Shown here one piece after another: positions 15,469-60,400 of a stretch of 64,000 bases of DNA. The number at the start of each line of letters is the position of its first letter. Position 1 is the stretch's first letter. The position numbers were made by a program, and so were the translations under genes. The notes under the pieces are model-generated. The model did not search any database. It was not told where the DNA came from and was given only the letters and a program-made list of their open reading frames with translations. Location: positions 25,694,266 to 25,758,265 of the forward strand of contig OX387197.1 in the NCBI GenBank assembly GCA_947561715.1. Direction: 5' to 3'. This stretch comes from Ascidia mentula (lineage: Eukaryota; Chordata; Ascidiacea; Phlebobranchia; Ascidiidae).

Positions 15469-18400
15469 GTAAATATATTTTTTTTATTTGCTGTAATGTA
15501 CTACCTAAAACCTCATGTAGCCTAATTGTAATGATGAAATGGGAAAATTATCCACAATACTGCAAATGTCGTTTCTCTTATTTAAATGTGAAATTGTGGA
15601 AATAGTCAATACATCGAGAATTTAGTTTTGAAATTGTCAACCGTTATCGAAAAAATTGGAAAAGATGGGCTCGTCCGGGATTTGAACCCGGGACCTCTCG
15701 CACCCTAAGCGAGAATCATACCCCTAGACCAACGAGCCGCACATGTGTTTGGCGGTAAAACGACGTTTATAAATCACGCCGTCGTGATCCCATTGTCTCG
15801 GCGTTGTGAGATGTTGTTTGAAAGACAATCGCTTTATTCCAATGTTGACAAAGAGAAGTTGTTTGGCCTTTGTTTTGTCACAGTGCGACCCATTGTTTGT
15901 TAGTTACCTGGTTCAATATTTGAGAGTTACTATAGTTGCGTGTACGTAAATCAAATAACTTTTGGAAGCAGTAAAACATTACTGTTGGTGAAACAAGCAA
16001 TTCTAAAACGTAAATTTAATGCGCTGATATCGCATTTCGAATACCTACATTTTGAATAACTATAGGCTACGTGAAACCAAAAAGACTGCCTATAAAACTA
16101 GGACAGTACATAGTGCTTGTACTGCAAACATATTGCTAAGATAGAACACATTTGTTTGCAAACCGTTTTTGATGACAAATATGCTCCCATGCAAAACAGC
16201 GGTGTAGACCACACTCGGGCCTACCGTTTGGGAACTGTGGGACAGACATTAAATTTGAAATGTGGTAGTTTCTTGACAAATAGGAAAAAGTTGGGCTCGT
16301 CCGGGATTTGAACCCGGGACCTCTCGCACCCAAAGCGAGAATCATACCCCTAGACCAACGAGCCGCACATGTGAATCGTTCTGTTGTGTCGTTTATATGG
16401 CAAGCGGCATCTCTCCAATGGACTCGAATTGGTTTTGCTCTTCAGCGTTCTGAAAAGTGTTTCTGTTTTGTCTACATATTTTTTTGCCAACTGCAAAGTT
16501 AAGCAACGCACAAGACCGATGACTTCAAAATGTTGAAGTTTTTTCGATTTCAATTTAATGTGATTGATAATTGATTGTCAAGGGTTTAAAAAACTGTCAT
16601 TTTTTGGAACATTTACGATGGTCAATTATCATGACAAAGGCAAAAATATTAGATACCAATCTAACACCGATTATAGTAGATCTATGCTATAAGTTTACTA
16701 TAATGTCGCATTAAACGCACAAATTACAAAAGTTGTTTATTTTAAACTAGTTACGATAATGCAGCTGCTTAAGATGGTAAATATCTAACGACTCGCTCGT
16801 GATTGTAACTGAAACGAAAATCACCCCAATCTAGACCATTGTCCAATGAAAAGCGTTCTCTATCGAGCGACCTCATGATTATACTGCAATGTTCGCAGTA
16901 CACGCGTGTCGGCTCGTTGGTCTAGGGGTATGATTCTCGCTTCGGGTGCGAGAGGTCCCGGGTTCAATTCCCGGACGAGCCCGCGTTCTTTTTCTTCATT
17001 ATCTTTTATTGAATGGTAAGTTCGTGTTCTCGACATTTCTGGTCCACAAGCATTTGATGCCCTTTTCATTATTTGGATACAAAGCAAATATTTATGATAC
17101 ATAACCAAACATGAATCATAATTATTCGTTTAAGGTTAACACCTTCCATATTTCAAAGCTTCTTTTTCGGCGAACGTTGATTGCGCGGACCTGCCAACGA
17201 TTTTCGTCTGCAATGTATTAGTTTTTCATAAAATTTCGAATATGCGCATTGAGGACTTTTAGTTTATTATTGAACAGCCGCGTAAGCCTTGTCATCGTTC
17301 TTTAGCTGTGGCAAGTTTAAACCGCCAAAATACATTTCTATGTTCTTCAGGCGAGTGAGGACCTCTACCGACTCCGTAAATCTGAGTACCGAATCGTTCG
17401 TGATCTCCATATAGACAACATCGCAAAACTACTTTTCTTCATTCCCGAAGAAGTTGTTCCTCCTCTTATCGTTGCTGCTCCTACTCCTGTTCCTGAAATC
17501 AGTGAAGAGGAAAAATTGATAAGAGATATCATCACTACAAAGTGAGTCACAATCGTAACTATAGCAACGTGTCGTCGTCGGATTGAAACGAAAGTTTAGC
17601 GTAAAACATGTTACACCGAAACTGACCGTTTCGCGCCATTTTCCAGGTATGACATTGTAAGGTCCAAGTTGTGGGACGAAGTCGTCACCGAAGGAAAAGT
17701 TAAATTCGACGTTGACCGCGACAGCGCCATTCAGCGATTGCTCGAAGAGGAAAAATCTGTACGAAGCAAATTGGTTGACCAGAAGGCATTCTTCGAAAAG
17801 CTGCAGGTAATACAGGAGAAATCTTCATGGTGGCGGGTGGCATATTTATATATTTTCGTCATCCAGCACAATGTCACTCAATATGTCGATTATTTTGTGA
17901 TTTCAAATTGGTGTTCTGAGAAATTGTGGTGATAAATGCTGTTTTTAATGAACAACGCAAAATAGCTGGGCTCGTCCGGGAATTGAACCCGGGACCTCTC
18001 GCACCCGAAGCGAGAATCATACCCCTAGACCAACGAGCCGCGCGTGATTTATCACAACCAATTGCCAACAGATTTGTAAAACCTTGGAAATAAAAATACC
18101 ATGGGTGGTTTGCAGGAATGTAATTGTTGGTGGGTTTGAACTAGTGCACTTTTGTGTTGTGCTATAAGGCATAATAACAAGAACTAGACGTATACGTTTT
18201 GAGTAAATCACATCCTGGTGTGTTTTTTAAGTAAGTATATAATTTTTATTTACCAGTTTTTGTCCGCGAACAAACCCCAACCATCACAAACTTTAACAAT
18301 GTACAGTTGATTGACTCTTTGCCTTGTGAAGGGAAGTCCAGTATTTTTGAATCCATTTCGTAATTTGCAGATTGCTTATTCCGCACATGACCTTTTCGGA

Positions 18401-21400
18401 CCACTGCCGTCGGCGTTCCGCTCGGCTGCAACGCTGAATGCGGAGAGCGAAAAAACAGTCACGGTTGACGAGACACAGCTGCTGGACCGTGACGAGTTAA
18501 ACGTTATTTCCGAGTTGGAGCTTCGGTGCGAAGACGAGATACGCGTGACATCAGATATTGTGATGTCATCCGATGATCCCGGCAAACATACGGAACAAGA
18601 AATTACCAGACAAAAGTGGATGATGTCACTAATTGACAGCGACATCACTTTTACGTCATCGGCCGTGGATCTCGTGACACTGGACAGATGCTGGGTTGGA
18701 AAGAATTTCAAATCAAAGTAAGTTGGAAGTTGCCTTGGCAACAAACCCTCGGAATGTTGATTTCTTAAAATGTAGATTTAAAATTCCTGTGAATAGAATA
18801 TTGGTGCTGACAATTACGAACAATAAAATTGTTAAGTTTGCAGATAACCAAGTCATTTTTTTACTGATAGTTTGTGTATGTTGTGTTGAAAACCAGTGTA
18901 AAGGAGGAATGCAATGAAATATATTGACATTTTTCAATAGGTTGGGATTTAAACACTGTGTAAATTGAAAAAAAAACACGGTATTTTCCCGTAAACCTTT
19001 GTCAACTGTGTTTCGGTATTTTACATCATTTTTCTTTCAGACTTCGTCAAGATTTGAAACGTCACATTCGTTCTACACAAGAAAGATTTCCATTGGAAAA
19101 TCCCTTCAACGAAATGTCTTTATCACAATTGGGTAATGGTTTTGAATAATTTGTTGCTAACAGTAGTTTAAAAGTGGGATGATTGACTTCAAAAACTGGG
19201 CTCGTCCGGGAATTGAACCCGGGACCTCTCGCACCCGAAGCGAGAATCATACCCCTAGACCAACGAGCCGCGGGTGTTTTTCCACCAAGGATTAGAACCA
19301 ACTGAAAAGGAAACGTTTTCTAAACTAACTCACTGAGATTCCTCAATGATATTATATTGTCATCACTTTTGGTTTCTATTAGAGGCAAACGTTTAAACCT
19401 GCTGTGCTGTCGACTGTCCGAGGATAGTTTTTGATGACGTTTAATTAAGAGTCTTTGCAAGAATATTTAATATTTTCTCTCCGAAATATTAAATGTTCGA
19501 CGTTTTCCCAACGCCGCTTGTTGTGCGTGACACCGGTGGAAACTTTACATTTGCAAAATTACAATATAAATAACCTCGCGTCGAAACGCAGTTTATTACA
19601 AAGAGAACATGTTTCGCTAAAAAGAATCATAAAAGTAAAATGCTGAAAAAGTAAAATAGTAAAACTGGTCGAGCATATCAGCTGCTGGTGCTAACCACCT
19701 CCATGTCACTCTGAATAGCGATGTCAGGTTTGCAAGAAATCGAGACTGGCCACGTGGTTCTGCTTTGAAGGACAATCAGGTCAAATATAATTTTCCTAAA
19801 TCAGGTGCAGAAAACCAACAAATCGCGCCCTCCCTTCGAATCCTGGTTGACCGCTACCCCTCAGAATGGATTCGATTCCGAAGCCTTCTAACAGACGTCA
19901 CCGCACAAGAATTACGCGAGGCCGCTTCGTCTATGACGTCAGACGAGCGAGTAACGCGATTGGCTGAGATAAACGCGAAACGAAGGAAGATTGACGTCAG
20001 AAGTGAAGGTGATCCCCGACTGAATTGTTCTCTGGTGTTTAGTCCAGTGTTTCCCAAACTTTTTGGGACACACGGAGCCGGATTCGTGGATATATTGTAA
20101 CCTTGCTCGTCTAACTTGTTTTATATATATTTAAATATATGAACATGACTCACGGTTTTATAAACCTTCAAAATAAAAAAGCCCATGTAACTGCTGGGAA
20201 ATTTAGGAATTTTCAAACGTTTTGATTGTAACTACCATCATTCTCAGTGTGAATTCATTGTCAAACATTTCACATTGAGAATGATTTTCAGTTACAATCG
20301 AAACGTTTGAAAAATAAATTTCTTACCAGTTAAATGGGCATACTGTTTATTTTGATTATTCAAATATTTCAAATAATATCATTTAACTTAATTTGTGGTA
20401 TGACAGATGGCAAAGAAGATCTCTTGTCGTTGCTCGAAGAAGCGTCGGCTCTTAAACACGTTTCACGAAGTGAAATACTGCGCCAACTAGCGGGCGATGC
20501 GAGCGAAAAGGACGTGGGGATTTCCCTTCTCGCAGACTTGCAAGAAGAGCAACTTAAGGACGCCATCACGTGGTTCGATGAACTTAACGAGGTGTGACAT
20601 TTAAGTTTTGAATAGTTTCATTTGTACGTGACTAAATATAATTAATTGTGCAAGCTGCATACAGATCGCCAACTGTTTCGACCTATAAGGTCTCATCAGT
20701 GCAGCTGGTATGACTATCGGACGACTTTGCCGACCAAACAGTGAATTCAATGTATAAAAAATTGTAATTCAAACATTCTAAAACAACCCTTTCTATCGTT
20801 TCTTTACTTGTGTTGGTTTCACTGCCACATGAGGTTCTGATGATGCTGTTTTTGTTTTAAGCTGAACGGATTGGTCATTTTTATGCACATCATTTGATTA
20901 TCTGTAGAATTTTCATCAATGTGCGCCCATCTGTATTTGGGCTTTGCCTTTCTCATGACTTTGCTTCATTAAGACTCAGGCAGTATTTTTTAAAAAGCAA
21001 TACATCAAATTAAGGGCATTAACATCATTTACTTAAAAAAAAACTGTCCTTTCCAACGCTGCAAAAACTGGGCTCGTCCGGGATTTGAACCCGGGACCTC
21101 TCGCACCCTAAGCGAGAATCATACCCCTAGACCAACGAGCCGCACGCGTTCTTCCGCTGAAATTTCGGCCAACTTCAAACTGCCGTTCCCACTCAACACC
21201 TACAGGCATCGTCCAACCTCATAATTACTCTTGTCTGATTAAAAATGTGGGTGTATTTCACTTAGACCAATGGCCACAGTCTGACCACTGGAGTGGATGA
21301 CGTCATCAGACACATGGACACGTGTGAAAATATATTTGCGGTCTTGTGCAAATACGAGGGTGCAGCTGCTGACGATCATCTCATGCAGGTTCGATATATA

Positions 21401-24400
21401 TCGTATCGTTAGACAAATGTTTTAAAATGATGGTATCGTTTATGTTCTTCACTACAAGTCGTTTTTATCACTTGTGTTCGTTTCATGAATAAATGTTTTC
21501 AGGCCCTTGAGGACAAATATGACGCACTGAGGGACAAGTTGCTTATCGACGCCCTCATGCGGCAGATCGGGGAGGAGGCGTGGCGTCGGATGAGCGAAAA
21601 GGAGAGACAAGCCCGACTTCTCAAGTTGAAGTTGGAGGAAAGGAGATTGAGGAGGGAAGGTAAGATAAGAGGGTTAAGAGGAAGAAATAATTGTTCAGGT
21701 AGAAACAGAAGAAAGTATTTGTATTTTTGTTTTCAAAAAATGATAATATGCTGACGCTGATCCACTATTTTCTTTGATATTTTTGCCAAAATTTGGATTG
21801 TTGTATTTTACATATGGATACACTTTAATATTGTTGTATTGACATTGCGTAATAAACTATTTGTGATCTTGTTATGACATCATTATTTGTGTACACGTGA
21901 CTTTTTCTCCCATCGTTTTGTTCATGTACAGGAGAACCAAAGAGCTTTTCAAATACTTTGTAATGTTTGTCTAATGCAAATTTTTCAGGTAAATTGGACG
22001 AGCTTGCCAAACTGTTGGGTGACGCGTTCGCCAACGACAAGAAGTTGAAGGGGTTGATGGGACTTAGCAGGGATGAATATGAGAGGAGGTTGAAGGAGAG
22101 ACTTGAAGCGAGAAAGAGAGGTAACACGTGACGTATTCGACTGATAGTTTATGTCAGTGTTTCCAAAAAAAATTTCTGTGGAACCGTGCAAGGTTGTTTA
22201 AGTTGACAAAAAAACAAGGTTAAAAACATCAAAGAAGCGCCATCTCCCGAACTTGACCGCACTTTCTTATTTAACTACAAGCTGGTCTATTGGAAAAAGC
22301 CAAACTTGCAAGTCTTAAACTTGGATACTTGGTGGGGGGAGCATTGCCTATTTGACCACGTCATGGCCACGCTAAAAGGTCATGACCCCACATCAAAGTG
22401 ACAATAAGTTTGAAAACGGGTGTTGAGCGTACTTAACTTCAACAAAATCGATTAGCATTGAGTTGCACATAGGTGATAGTGATGGTACTTGAAAGTTGCA
22501 GAGATGTACAGACTTTAGCTTTAAACTTTCAACGAGCATTTTCAGTGTGTTGCTAAAGCATTTGTGTCTTGCGTTTGAATGTCATACTTATCAAATGTGT
22601 TAGCGTGAGGCGTATTCACTAAAATCCGTTCCTGTTCCAAATCAATCAAATAATCGCGACCTGAAACATATAATGATCCTAAAAAAAGGCATGTCAACAC
22701 CATTTAGGTGGATATACTGCCACGCGAAAAATTTCCATAAAAATGAGGCAAATACGGCCAAACGAAAAATGACGTCACGTGAAAAACCTAGAGGTTGTAT
22801 ACCACGTTTCCAGTATATTCCGCTTCAACGGTCACTTGAAATAAATATAGGCAAAACATCTTTTCGCAAGCAACACGTATCTTCTATGGAAGTCTTTGCT
22901 TGGCCGTTTGGTCAGCAAAGTCGTCTGATAGTCACACCAGCTGCACTGATGAGACCTTTTAGGTCGAAACAGTGGCCATCTGTCTGCAGCTTATACACAA
23001 ATTCATATTATTGGCTCCACATGCTTAACGTATCTTCTATATTCGGGCAGCAATTATATCAACATATATAATGATGGGATTATCGGGTATTGTGCGGTAA
23101 ACGTCATCACATACTCACTTTTATTCAACCGTGTCTACCCTGTAATTACCTGTTTTCTGTAATATTATTGGGTGCAAGTGTATAGTTTAAAGCATACATT
23201 TCTCTCAACAATAAAAATGTTGTAAGGGTTGTAAGAGGCAACCCCGGGTAACAAACAACCTCTAACACAGCACCAGGTTAGTCGTCGCCAGTGTTGTCTG
23301 TGGAGCTGATACGTTTTGTTTCGCTATAAAAAGGTTGTAAGTGAACATTACTCACGAAACTGTACGCAAAGATATGACAGCTACAGTATAAGGACAGCAT
23401 ATATCGACCACGCCTTTTATAAATCTCTTTCGAACTATCGCATTTTCTTCGTATATCGTATAACTGAGAATAGTTCAGGAAGTTGTGAGAGTTTATTTAT
23501 TTCGGATGCACTTCAAACGAAAGTCGTGAAAGCCTCTAGTTTACTGACCAAAGCTCGTTGTTTTTTGCACATGTTTAGACATACACTGGAACATTGTTTC
23601 TCAACCACCGATCTGCGTAAATTTTTTCACCGGTCCCAATTCATATTGTTTCACATTAATTGGATTTTTTCTGGTTCAAAACGCATACTTTTGCGATTTT
23701 TTTTATATTTTCGACATGTTCTGTTTATTACATTTTAGTTTAGGATTCAGAAAATCCCCGGACTGCTAAAATCGCTGGTTAAAATTTTACCGGTCCGCAA
23801 TTGCAAGGAGCTTGTTAACCACTGCACTATAGAAAACTGTGCCTTATTTCTTGCTCAACTTATTATAGGAGACGCGATCGCAGAAGAAGACGAGGAGGCG
23901 GGAGAAGATTTGGAAGAAGACGAATCTGGGATCAACAATCCTCTCGTGGATTTATCATCAAGATTTGAAGAGGAACGCGATGCTCTGATGAGATTACTAA
24001 ACGGGCAGGATGACTTGTGAGTTATTTCTTTGTTTGTTTGGTTTAATTGCGCTGCATCTTGAAAGATCAAACAAGCAGATCGGAAATTTTCATTGGACTG
24101 GAAGGCGGTTTCTGTCCAATATTGTGACGAAATAATGGCGATTTTTTTTGTTGAACAAGTAATAGCCATGCATGTGCCAGATAAAGCAAGCTTCTGATGA
24201 ACGAAAATCAATCTTAGACAACCCTTATGTATGTGACTACAGCGTTTGTTAGTGTTGTAACACATTTTAAAGGAGAGGTATCGCCCCATTCGCCCCCTCC
24301 TGGATCCACACCAGGCTCTACCCCCGGGTCTGATAAACTTTTCGATGTAAATAGTTAAACCTCGTTATTCCAAAATCTGGAATTCGACTGTTTTCTTTTC

Positions 24401-57415: not shown

Positions 57416-60400
57416 ATGGAAGACCCTTCCGTTCGAAGAAGGCATGTTTCTAAACCGGACGATGCAACCAGAAATGTTGAACGTCGTGGTAGAAACTGTG
57501 GTAGGCTGAGTGTTTTTAGGTTTCATTTATAGTTTTTCTCTCAAATTCAAAATCTGAAACAATTGTAATGTCAAACTTTCTGAATACATTTTTATTTCCA
57601 TTGAATTGTCCAAGCATGTGGCATAAAAATGAATTATCAACTGTGGATGCAACTTTTGTCCGGAATTTCATCTTCCTGTCCAGTTGCATAATTAATTTAA
57701 CAATGTATTACTCTGTATTCCAAAAGGTGGAAGAGGCAGCAAACCTGTACATCAGCATTTTGTTCCCAACAGTAGTTGGTTCCTGATGATATTTTTCTTT
57801 TACTTTTGTGCCACTGTGTTGGTATGGTATTCAAACTCAAATCTTCCACTTCCAAAACAGGCAAAAGAATCCAAACCACACGAGTTTGTCGAAGAATTAG
57901 CAAGGTATGTTTGTTTTCACATCCAATGAATTGAGATTTTTCTGAGATGTTGAATTTCTTATTTGTAACTTATTGTTTACGAAGTCTTTTGTTCTGGGAG
58001 TGATGGAAGACAGGTTCAAAAAGTATAAAGTAGTTTTTTTTATCATCAAATATTATCTTCCACTGAAAAATGCTTATAATAAATAGAACAGCTTTATTAT
58101 TTTTACATTCCGCAGTCACAGAATCGGAAGATGCCTCTTTAAGGCAAAACATATTTTTATGTTATTCAACATTTATAGAGCTTGTGGAAGTCTTTGCTTG
58201 GCCGTTTGGTCAGCAAAGTCGTCTGACAGTCACACCAGCTGCACTGATGAGACCTTTTAGGTCGAAACAGTGGCCATCTGTCTGCAGCTTATACACAAAT
58301 TTATAGAGCTGTCTGATTGATCGATATTTTCCACTTTGCATAGAACAGCTTTCGCACACAAATAATTTCAGGATTTTTATGATGAAACATTCATGTTTAG
58401 AAAACATTTGACAAAGTTTGTGAGTTTTGGGCATCGTGTAGCTGGGAGTACAGCTAACGAAGTTCATTCTGTGCGATACATTCTGCAAGAAGTTTTGGAA
58501 ATTAAAAAACAAGCTGGTTCTTCTGTTAAGTTTGAAGTTGACGTCCAGCACCCCACAGTAAGAAAGTTGTATACTTGTGATCAAAACCTTCATGAACGTT
58601 TTGTTTAACAGCGAACATGCTGATCACCAACTTGTATGAAATATATTATAAAAGTCAAAATTAAACAATAAATGTCATTCCTTTGCATGAACTGTTTTTA
58701 ATTGTTCACAGTTTTTTTTTACATTGTAGGGCTCCTTTAGTATTGATTTTCTGGGTGGTTTTGCAAGCTACTACACCAACATAACAAATACAGTTGTCAA
58801 AATATCACCTCCTGATGATCAAGGTCCTGCCTTGCTACTTAATTGTCACACCGACTCTGTGGTTGGGTCTCCAGGTAAGACACCATTTAGTTATACCTCT
58901 GTTTTGGAATGTTTTATTGCACACAGTTATTTGTTTCTGAATGCATTTGCAGTAGAGTATAATATAATTTTAAATGTCCCTAGATGAGGTGTAAACATGC
59001 ATTAGAGTTGATAATTAAATTTTTAAAATGGTATTAATTATTGCCCAGAGTCCCAAATGTTTTATGAATTTGCTACGTATTTTACACGAACTGTTATTTT
59101 CAGGTGCCAGCGATGATGCTGTCGCATGTTCTGTGTTATTGGAGCTCATGAGAGCATTTGTGTCCGATGATCAAACTCCATTAAGACACCCTACCATATT
59201 TCTGTTTAACGGTGCTGAGGAAAATATTTTGCAGGCCAGCCACGGTTTCATTACTAAACATAAGTGGGCAAAGCAGGTATGTCTTTAAAATAAAATTAAT
59301 ACGTCTAGCTATACTTGAAATAGATGCATATTAGTATTATGCAATATGATATTACCTTTGGCTTTTTTATTCAAAGTAATCAACTCCAAGTATTTTGCAC
59401 CCATGTCTTGCTATATTTAAAGACAATTTTAAAACTCTTAAAAGTTTAATACCCGATAAAACTTGTGATGTTTGGGATATATTTTGTGAATTTATGTTAT
59501 TCTGCATTATGAAGGTGAAAGCATTTATAAACCTGGAAGCAGCTGGTGCTGGTGGAAAAGAAATAGTGTTTCAAACAGGACCAGAGAATCCATGGTTGTT
59601 GACTTCTTGGATAAACCACGCCCCTTATCCGTACGGGACCGTTTTTGCACAGGAACTTTTTCAAAGTGGAGTTGTTCCTTCAGACACTGACTTCAGGTTA
59701 AGAAGTGTATGTAACTTTTTCTTTGCAGACAATTTAACATTTCCAAAAGAAACTAATGCCTCTAATTCTCAGAAAAACTTTTATGTAAATTGTACCTTGT
59801 GCAGAATGAAGAAATGAACACTGTCTGTAAAATATGCTCATGAAATATTTCTATTGTTTTTTTAGAATTTTCCGTGACTATGGTAAAGTACCTGGACTTG
59901 ATCTTGCGTACATAAAGAATGGTTATGTTTACCACACACAATATGATAACGCGAACATGGTTCATCCTGGGTGTGTCCAGAGGGCAGGTAAACCTTAAAG
60001 TTATGAACAATAGTTTACTTACTAAAAAAGCCATGTGAACCATGTTATTAATGTGCATGCCACCAAGCTGGATAATTAGTTTGTATAAAACACCGGCATA
60101 TATAGGTGTTTTAGCTGCTTTTGGCAACAGCAGGATAATGTTTAAGTCAACAGAAGGAAATCATGCATATTTTGTTTGCACTAATGTTGGCATGGGTGAT
60201 ATGTCATGCATGTAAGCTTATACAATGTCAGTTGCACTAACATAACCAGTAAGCATAGACTTTGTCATGATGCATCATCACTTCCACACAAACATAATTC
60301 ATTCTTGCAAAATAGTATGCATTGTGTTTGTGCCCAGTTTATCTATTAAAAAATATACTTGGCCAAAAGCAATTTTTGTGAGGATTAATTGACTTTCATT

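Follow-up and report, generated by a model that had tools for sequence, protein, structure and literature searches.

A 5′-truncated non-LTR retrozyme in Ascidia mentula and insertion scars that suggest a Penelope-like manner of integration

The window, a 64,000-nucleotide stretch of the Ascidia mentula genome (contig OX387197.1), contains a hammerhead-bearing insertion of 140 bp, designated copy 1, which is probably (about 0.8, judged from sequence comparison) a 5′-truncated copy of a non-LTR retrozyme whose mode of integration resembles that of Penelope-like elements (PLEs). Related insertions of the same genome reveal two putative starts, one for each arm, a single apparent template copied in repeated passes, and symmetric, staggered target edges. 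These scars support the earlier suspicion that animal retrozymes are moved by PLE machinery (PMC7229834), and they suggest a two-start, two-strand mechanism. The kind of element is already known, and the informative insertion scars are the added part.

Retrozyme copies in the window and their parent unit

Positions within the element are given as m1–m285, the coordinates of a real tandem unit (locus L010, 1501-1785) in which m1 corresponds to window position 22887. The features of the window, including target-site duplications (TSDs), are as follows.

22888..23027, + strand: retrozyme insertion copy 1, one-armed, apparently 5′-truncated; 3′ end at start site 2
22939..22991, + strand: type I hammerhead ribozyme of copy 1; predicted cut between 22984 and 22985 (m98 and m99)
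22994..23003, + strand: equivalent of start site 1 (m108-m117), carried over from mapped ends; copied through in copy 1
22875..22887, + strand: left TSD ACGTATCTTCTAT of copy 1; preceded by AAC, a favoured target edge
23028..23040, + strand: right TSD ACGTATCTTCTAT of copy 1; followed by ATT, not the favoured GTT
58183..58298, + strand: retrozyme insertion copy 2, 116 bp long and one-armed; 3′ end at start site 1
58237..58289, + strand: hammerhead of copy 2; its 53 letters are identical to the hammerhead of copy 1
58171..58182, + strand: left TSD ATTTATAGAGCT of copy 2; preceded by AAC
58299..58310, + strand: right TSD ATTTATAGAGCT of copy 2; followed by GTC

The original prediction described a complete type I hammerhead in copy 1, and the motif is as described, with stem I (AGCTGCA/TGCAGCT), CTGATGA, a 5-bp stem II, GAA and a 4-bp stem III. 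As ACGTATCTTCTAT, a 13-bp direct repeat, bounds the insert on both sides, copy 1 is delimited to 140 bp. The hammerhead and its flanking repeats are confirmed as real, beyond chance. The reality of the motif follows from its copy number, since a 44-nt ribozyme core with up to three mismatches gave 727 + 652 genome matches (at least 1,379 in 196 Mb), with none for a reversed-pattern control. A start-region pattern gave 702 + 643 matches, again with none for its control, and the first genome search returned at least 107 matches (40 of 1791 candidates scored), many of them clustered at a spacing of about 285 bp. A window scan with Rfam at gathering scores called six tRNAs and no hammerhead; the best sub-threshold scores at the hammerhead were 20.6 bits (Hammerhead_3) and 19.9 bits (RAGATH-1). 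Genome searches with RF03152 and RF00163 gave no matches at E ≤ 0.001, but the controls were equally silent. For the isolated ribozyme, the lowest-energy predicted fold has −18.0 kcal/mol versus −16.6 kcal/mol for the hammerhead fold, in a calculation that ignores tertiary contacts. The six tRNA genes lie at 15667-21141 on both strands with near-identical bodies, and by eye are tRNA-Pro-like with differing anticodons.

In related insertions the unit is 284/285 bp long and arranged head to tail. It has a G+C content of 47.4% and a longest ATG open reading frame (ORF) of 46 aa across three tandem units, in agreement with the earlier description of a unit without coding sequence. Copy 1 covers approximately m2-m142 of the 285-bp reference unit, with one T missing and the rest identical; the claim that its 140 bp make up the whole element is therefore not upheld. 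By this alignment, copy 1 is a 5′-truncated insertion of the 284/285-nt retrozyme, which resembles “just a ribozyme” because reverse transcription apparently started about 44 nt past the cut and halted roughly half a turn on. Copy 2, which was missing from the first list of features, differs from the reference by one substitution over m1-m113 and has its own 12-bp duplication, ATTTATAGAGCT.

Seventy loci were mapped, comprising the 30 best of the first genome search, chosen by similarity to the window copy, and 40 C1 regions among the exact-core matches listed, chosen by the exact ribozyme core. Removal of repeated views left 60 insertions, and one of 55 bp was dropped to give n = 59, in which L057 and L059 are alike and may be one duplicated insertion. 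Twenty-seven of the 59 are at least 285 bp long, with lengths up to 1,828 bp; 27 of 100 mapped arms are longer than one unit, the longest reaching 5.9 units, and for the least similar arm the median identity is 97%. Apparent variation at m265-271 was set aside as mostly an oddity of the reference, which has an extra A, as 53 of 79 strings read ACTGTAT (overlapping loci being counted more than once).

Insertion ends, target sites and the copied template

The 59 insertions have 90 outer sense-strand 3′ ends, and 88 of these cluster at two positions separated by about 30 nt, with 44 at each. Ends fixed by a TSD of at least 9 nt lie at m108-117 (n = 34), m138-149 (n = 33) and m80 (n = 1), and ends without such a TSD, which are uncorrected, lie at m111-127 (n = 10), m140-150 (n = 11) and m82 (n = 1). 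Relative to the predicted cut, start sites 1 and 2 thus lie downstream by 10-19 and 40-51 nt. All 31 two-armed insertions are tail-out (− then +), and 29 of them pair site 1 with site 2; the remaining two combine site 2 with one odd end, and like is never paired with like (p ~2e-9 for 29/29 at even odds). As start sites form both outer ends, and two different ones in 29 of the 31 cases, the data favour priming from both target strands. The 28 insertions with a single outer 3′ end are divided between site 1 (15) and site 2 (13), a complex +-++ case (L008) being counted among them. Neighbours within 1.5 kb among the 83 C1 exact-core matches listed are oriented -+ in eight cases, ++ in eight, -- in one and +- in none. 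Folding of the start regions gave no claimable common stem-loop.

The 5′ ends, in contrast to the 3′ ends, differ widely among copies. A minimal ribozyme transposon that is complete in 140 bp is hardly credible: the unit does have its own TSD and is otherwise nearly identical to other copies, but this scatter of 5′ ends, the many insertions of at least 285 bp and the other start site at the end of copy 2 all speak against it. No pile-up of 5′ ends occurs at the ribozyme cut (2/96 in m96-102), and 85 of 89 arms span it. Locus choice by the ribozyme core favours cut-crossing arms; no way is seen in which it would favour one pairing. An open monomer cleaved between m98 and m99 would be expected to yield arms of only about 10-50 nt, so the crossing arms and the scattered 5′ ends argue that the template was intact at the cut, either as a circle or as an uncleaved multimer. 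A peak of 5′ ends at m51-55 (9/96) is only suggestive.

The multimeric form of such a template, a linear transcript of a genomic array with the two-start mechanism otherwise unchanged, has a small but appreciable probability. It would likewise be expected to give multi-unit arms and an intact cleavage site, but it requires source arrays of at least six units for the 5.9-unit arm and private variants in every unit, and circles are the form reported in other animals (PMC7229834).

In several insertions, rare variants run through all passes. In both arms, L026 has m23C in 6/6 and m262A in 5/5 passes, L062 has m53T in 7/7 passes, and L086 has m28T in 5/5, m41A in 5/5 and m186A in 4/4 passes; m43C likewise occurs in 4/4 passes of L022 and 3/3 passes of L030. 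When a minor variant of one pass was looked for elsewhere, it was present in 104 of 304 comparisons with further passes of that arm, in 138 of 419 with the opposite arm and in 75 of 1379 with other insertions. Mismatch rates were 1.5% among passes of one arm, 2.4% across arms and 4.4% across insertions. As the rare variants recur in all passes and in both arms, one template appears to have been copied repeatedly from both target strands. Many variants that are confined to single passes count against this reading; they could be explained by later mutation or edge misalignment. A difference at one hairpin loop among the three units of the L009/L010 array likewise counts against it.

TSDs of at least 9 nt flank 40 of the 59 insertions versus 5 of 1161 shuffled flank pairs, and 24 of these 40 are 12 or 13 nt long (mode 12-13). 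The 13-bp repeat of copy 1 is therefore a true TSD, as had been proposed, and the proposed mobility is supported. Alignment of the copies for length and duplications, which had been recommended, gave recurrent TSDs and no fixed length. The original prediction had also considered that the ribozyme might be an end fragment of a long element flanked by coincidental repeats; copy 1 is indeed incomplete, but the element from which it derives is short, and its repeats are no coincidence. A long coding element with the ribozyme at one end was rejected, since the flanks are differing target DNA with TSDs and since, in a comparison of the ribozyme with 20 PLE loci (L031-L050), the sole match longer than 12 nt was one of 35 nt at 86% with a changed core, in L032/L039.

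Both nicks favour ^GTT in a two-fold symmetric manner, with G, T and T at 35, 59 and 56 of 80 edges, respectively, and GT at 31 of 80 edges versus 6.4%. G at +1 is found at both edges of 7 of 40 targets, at one edge of 21 and at neither edge of 12. The 28 two-armed cases that have a TSD show 78% A+T in the duplication versus 62% in the flanks; microhomology is clear beside site 1 (mean run 2.8 versus 1.7 random) and weak beside site 2 (2.2 versus 1.8, p ~0.04).

These features bear on a distinctly unlikely alternative, in which a single cDNA gives rise to the inverted copies by priming itself or by switching template, as has been proposed for rotifer PLEs (PMC3846280). Such a process would account for the inverted joints and for variants common to both arms. 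It gives no reason why both outer ends should be same-sense start sites of two kinds adjoining a TSD, nor does it predict a two-fold symmetric nick motif with microhomology at the starts.

A candidate route of integration and the PLEs of the same genome

In the preferred reading, the ribozyme, by its predicted activity, would trim transcripts to monomers, and ligation would close these into circles. A PLE reverse transcriptase/GIY-YIG endonuclease, probably acting as a dimer, would nick both target strands, and each of the freed 3′ ends would prime at a different one of the two internal start sites of the same circle. Copying would proceed round the template until it stopped, and the two cDNAs would become joined. 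For copy 1, only the site-2 cDNA of 140 nt would be visible.

LINE-type retrotransposons also give TSDs and inversions, and movement of the retrozyme by such an element through L1-like twin priming would explain both features. It is nevertheless quite improbable, as no LINE-like 3′ tail is present at the ends read, and a pair of fixed internal starts separated by about 30 nt, together with one-of-each pairing, fits the PLEs of the same genome.

A GIY-YIG search of the genome gave at least 121 matches (150 of 382 candidates scored), with open frames of up to 892 aa. Among the matches listed, neighbours within 12 kb are arranged -+ in 17 cases, ++ in six, -- in one and +- in none. PLE-A forms an array on C67, in which the unit measures 2,870 bp and has an 892-aa ORF; the later part of this ORF matches RVT_1 and GIY-YIG, and its first 404 codons matched no Pfam family. 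PLE-A insertions end at approximately 2022-2031 or 2060-2071 of L046, which places the starts about 40 nt apart. Fifteen sampled rows represent 12 distinct insertions once duplicated loci are removed, and 11 of these 12 have one end of each kind, in the same layout as in the retrozyme. The single exception (L112/L113), with both ends at site 1, breaks the one-of-each rule and counts against the PLE-manner reading. Its target is a perfect palindrome, gcagttac-ATATATATATAT-gtaactgc. TSDs of at least 9 nt accompany nine of the 12 insertions, and the other three have only a 6-7-nt repeat.

PLE-A was rejected as the exact driver of the retrozyme. Its 18 edges have G at +1 in 17 cases, T at +2 in 12 and T at +3 in one, i.e., ^GTA/GTG instead of ^GTT (T at +3 is found at 56 of 80 retrozyme edges), and no common start sequence was seen; the start-site sequence of the retrozyme was absent from every PLE tried. 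PLE-D, another family, is offered as a lead to a possible driver: in a single insertion (L036), the starts are spaced by about 33, one edge reads ^GTTT and a 13-bp repeat is present. At L033, a tail of about 40 nt is seen by eye at one end and none at the other, and a TSD was not found. Extra fragments of 73-74% lie alongside the PLE-A copies at C52:16.04 Mb. Past the PLE-B end in L093, positions ~801-1005 have 72-80% identity to the sequence that follows the endonuclease in L032/L035/L039, and this stretch is perhaps one PLE beside another.

Whether the route extends to animal retrozymes in general is an evenly balanced question. They would be circular-RNA parasites of a dimeric PLE enzyme, the halves of which nick one strand each at AAC-N12/13-GTT and use different fixed starts. 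If so, every two-armed insertion should end in the two different starts, with both its arms running round the same RNA; the rule should be general for PLEs, where it could account for tails and inverted repeats and explain the “optional tail” and inverted copies. The copies described here serve as a natural integration assay, recording the two starts, the nick motif, the stagger and the one-of-each rule.

Relation to known retrozymes and PLEs

Metazoan non-LTR retrozymes were defined in PMC7229834 (Cervera and de la Pena 2020) as non-coding tandem repeats of 170-400 nt that bear type I hammerheads, occur in many copies alongside PLEs and have TSDs longer than 4 bp. The kinship with retrozymes that the original prediction had raised stands on this comparison, as the element has a type I hammerhead, 284/285-bp tandem units, no coding sequence and TSDs longer than 4 bp. 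Its G+C content is under the value of <50% in the text and over that of <45% in the figure legend of PMC7229834. Because retrozymes and PLEs are both tandem, co-existing and type I hammerhead-bearing, PLEs are regarded there as strong candidates for moving animal retrozymes. The two-spot 3′ ends, the tail-out two-armed insertions and the ^GTT target are not described in the accessible sections of that paper, and no report of the scar rule was found in the open-access literature searched, including such sections of PMC7229834 and PMC7761336. Plant LTR retrozymes are likewise non-autonomous and ribozyme-bearing, with circular RNA intermediates reported, but they differ in having type III hammerheads, LTRs, 4-bp TSDs and 600-800-nt circles (PMC7229834), none of which is found here; the present topology is type I, with TSDs mostly of 12-13 nt.

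Regarding PLEs, a lizard element has two neighbouring internal start sites, which match its genomic tail, and in vitro it cuts and extends both strands, with a dimer predicted (PMC11167929). In the accessible account of that work, the start did not vary with the strand, which counts against a reading with one start per strand, and ribozyme activity is not needed for insertion in vitro. For other PLEs, the tail has been described as an optional feature of one pLTR in an inverted pair, with self-priming on an antisense template as the favoured explanation (PMC3846280). The likeness of the retrozyme to GIY-YIG PLEs thus extends to the arrangement in tandem and in inverted orientation, the presence of a tail at one end of an inverted pair, a pair of neighbouring internal starts (here 30-40 nt apart), the cutting of both strands and the hammerheads (PMC11167929, PMC3846280). 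The retrozyme itself is not a PLE, as it has no reverse transcriptase/GIY-YIG ORF (none longer than 46 aa), though it may insert like one. PLE-A, by comparison, differs in its 2,870-bp coding unit, its start spacing and its ^GTA/GTG edges.

A second retrozyme family in L050 was considered and rejected, since the sequence looks like a diverged lone copy: 41 of its 43 non-self matches are at 71-74%, and the remaining two are short pieces at 88%. In this diverged copy (L050:500-765), the 22-nt stretch that separates the start sites has stayed unchanged, and the start region of the retrozyme may be under constraint.
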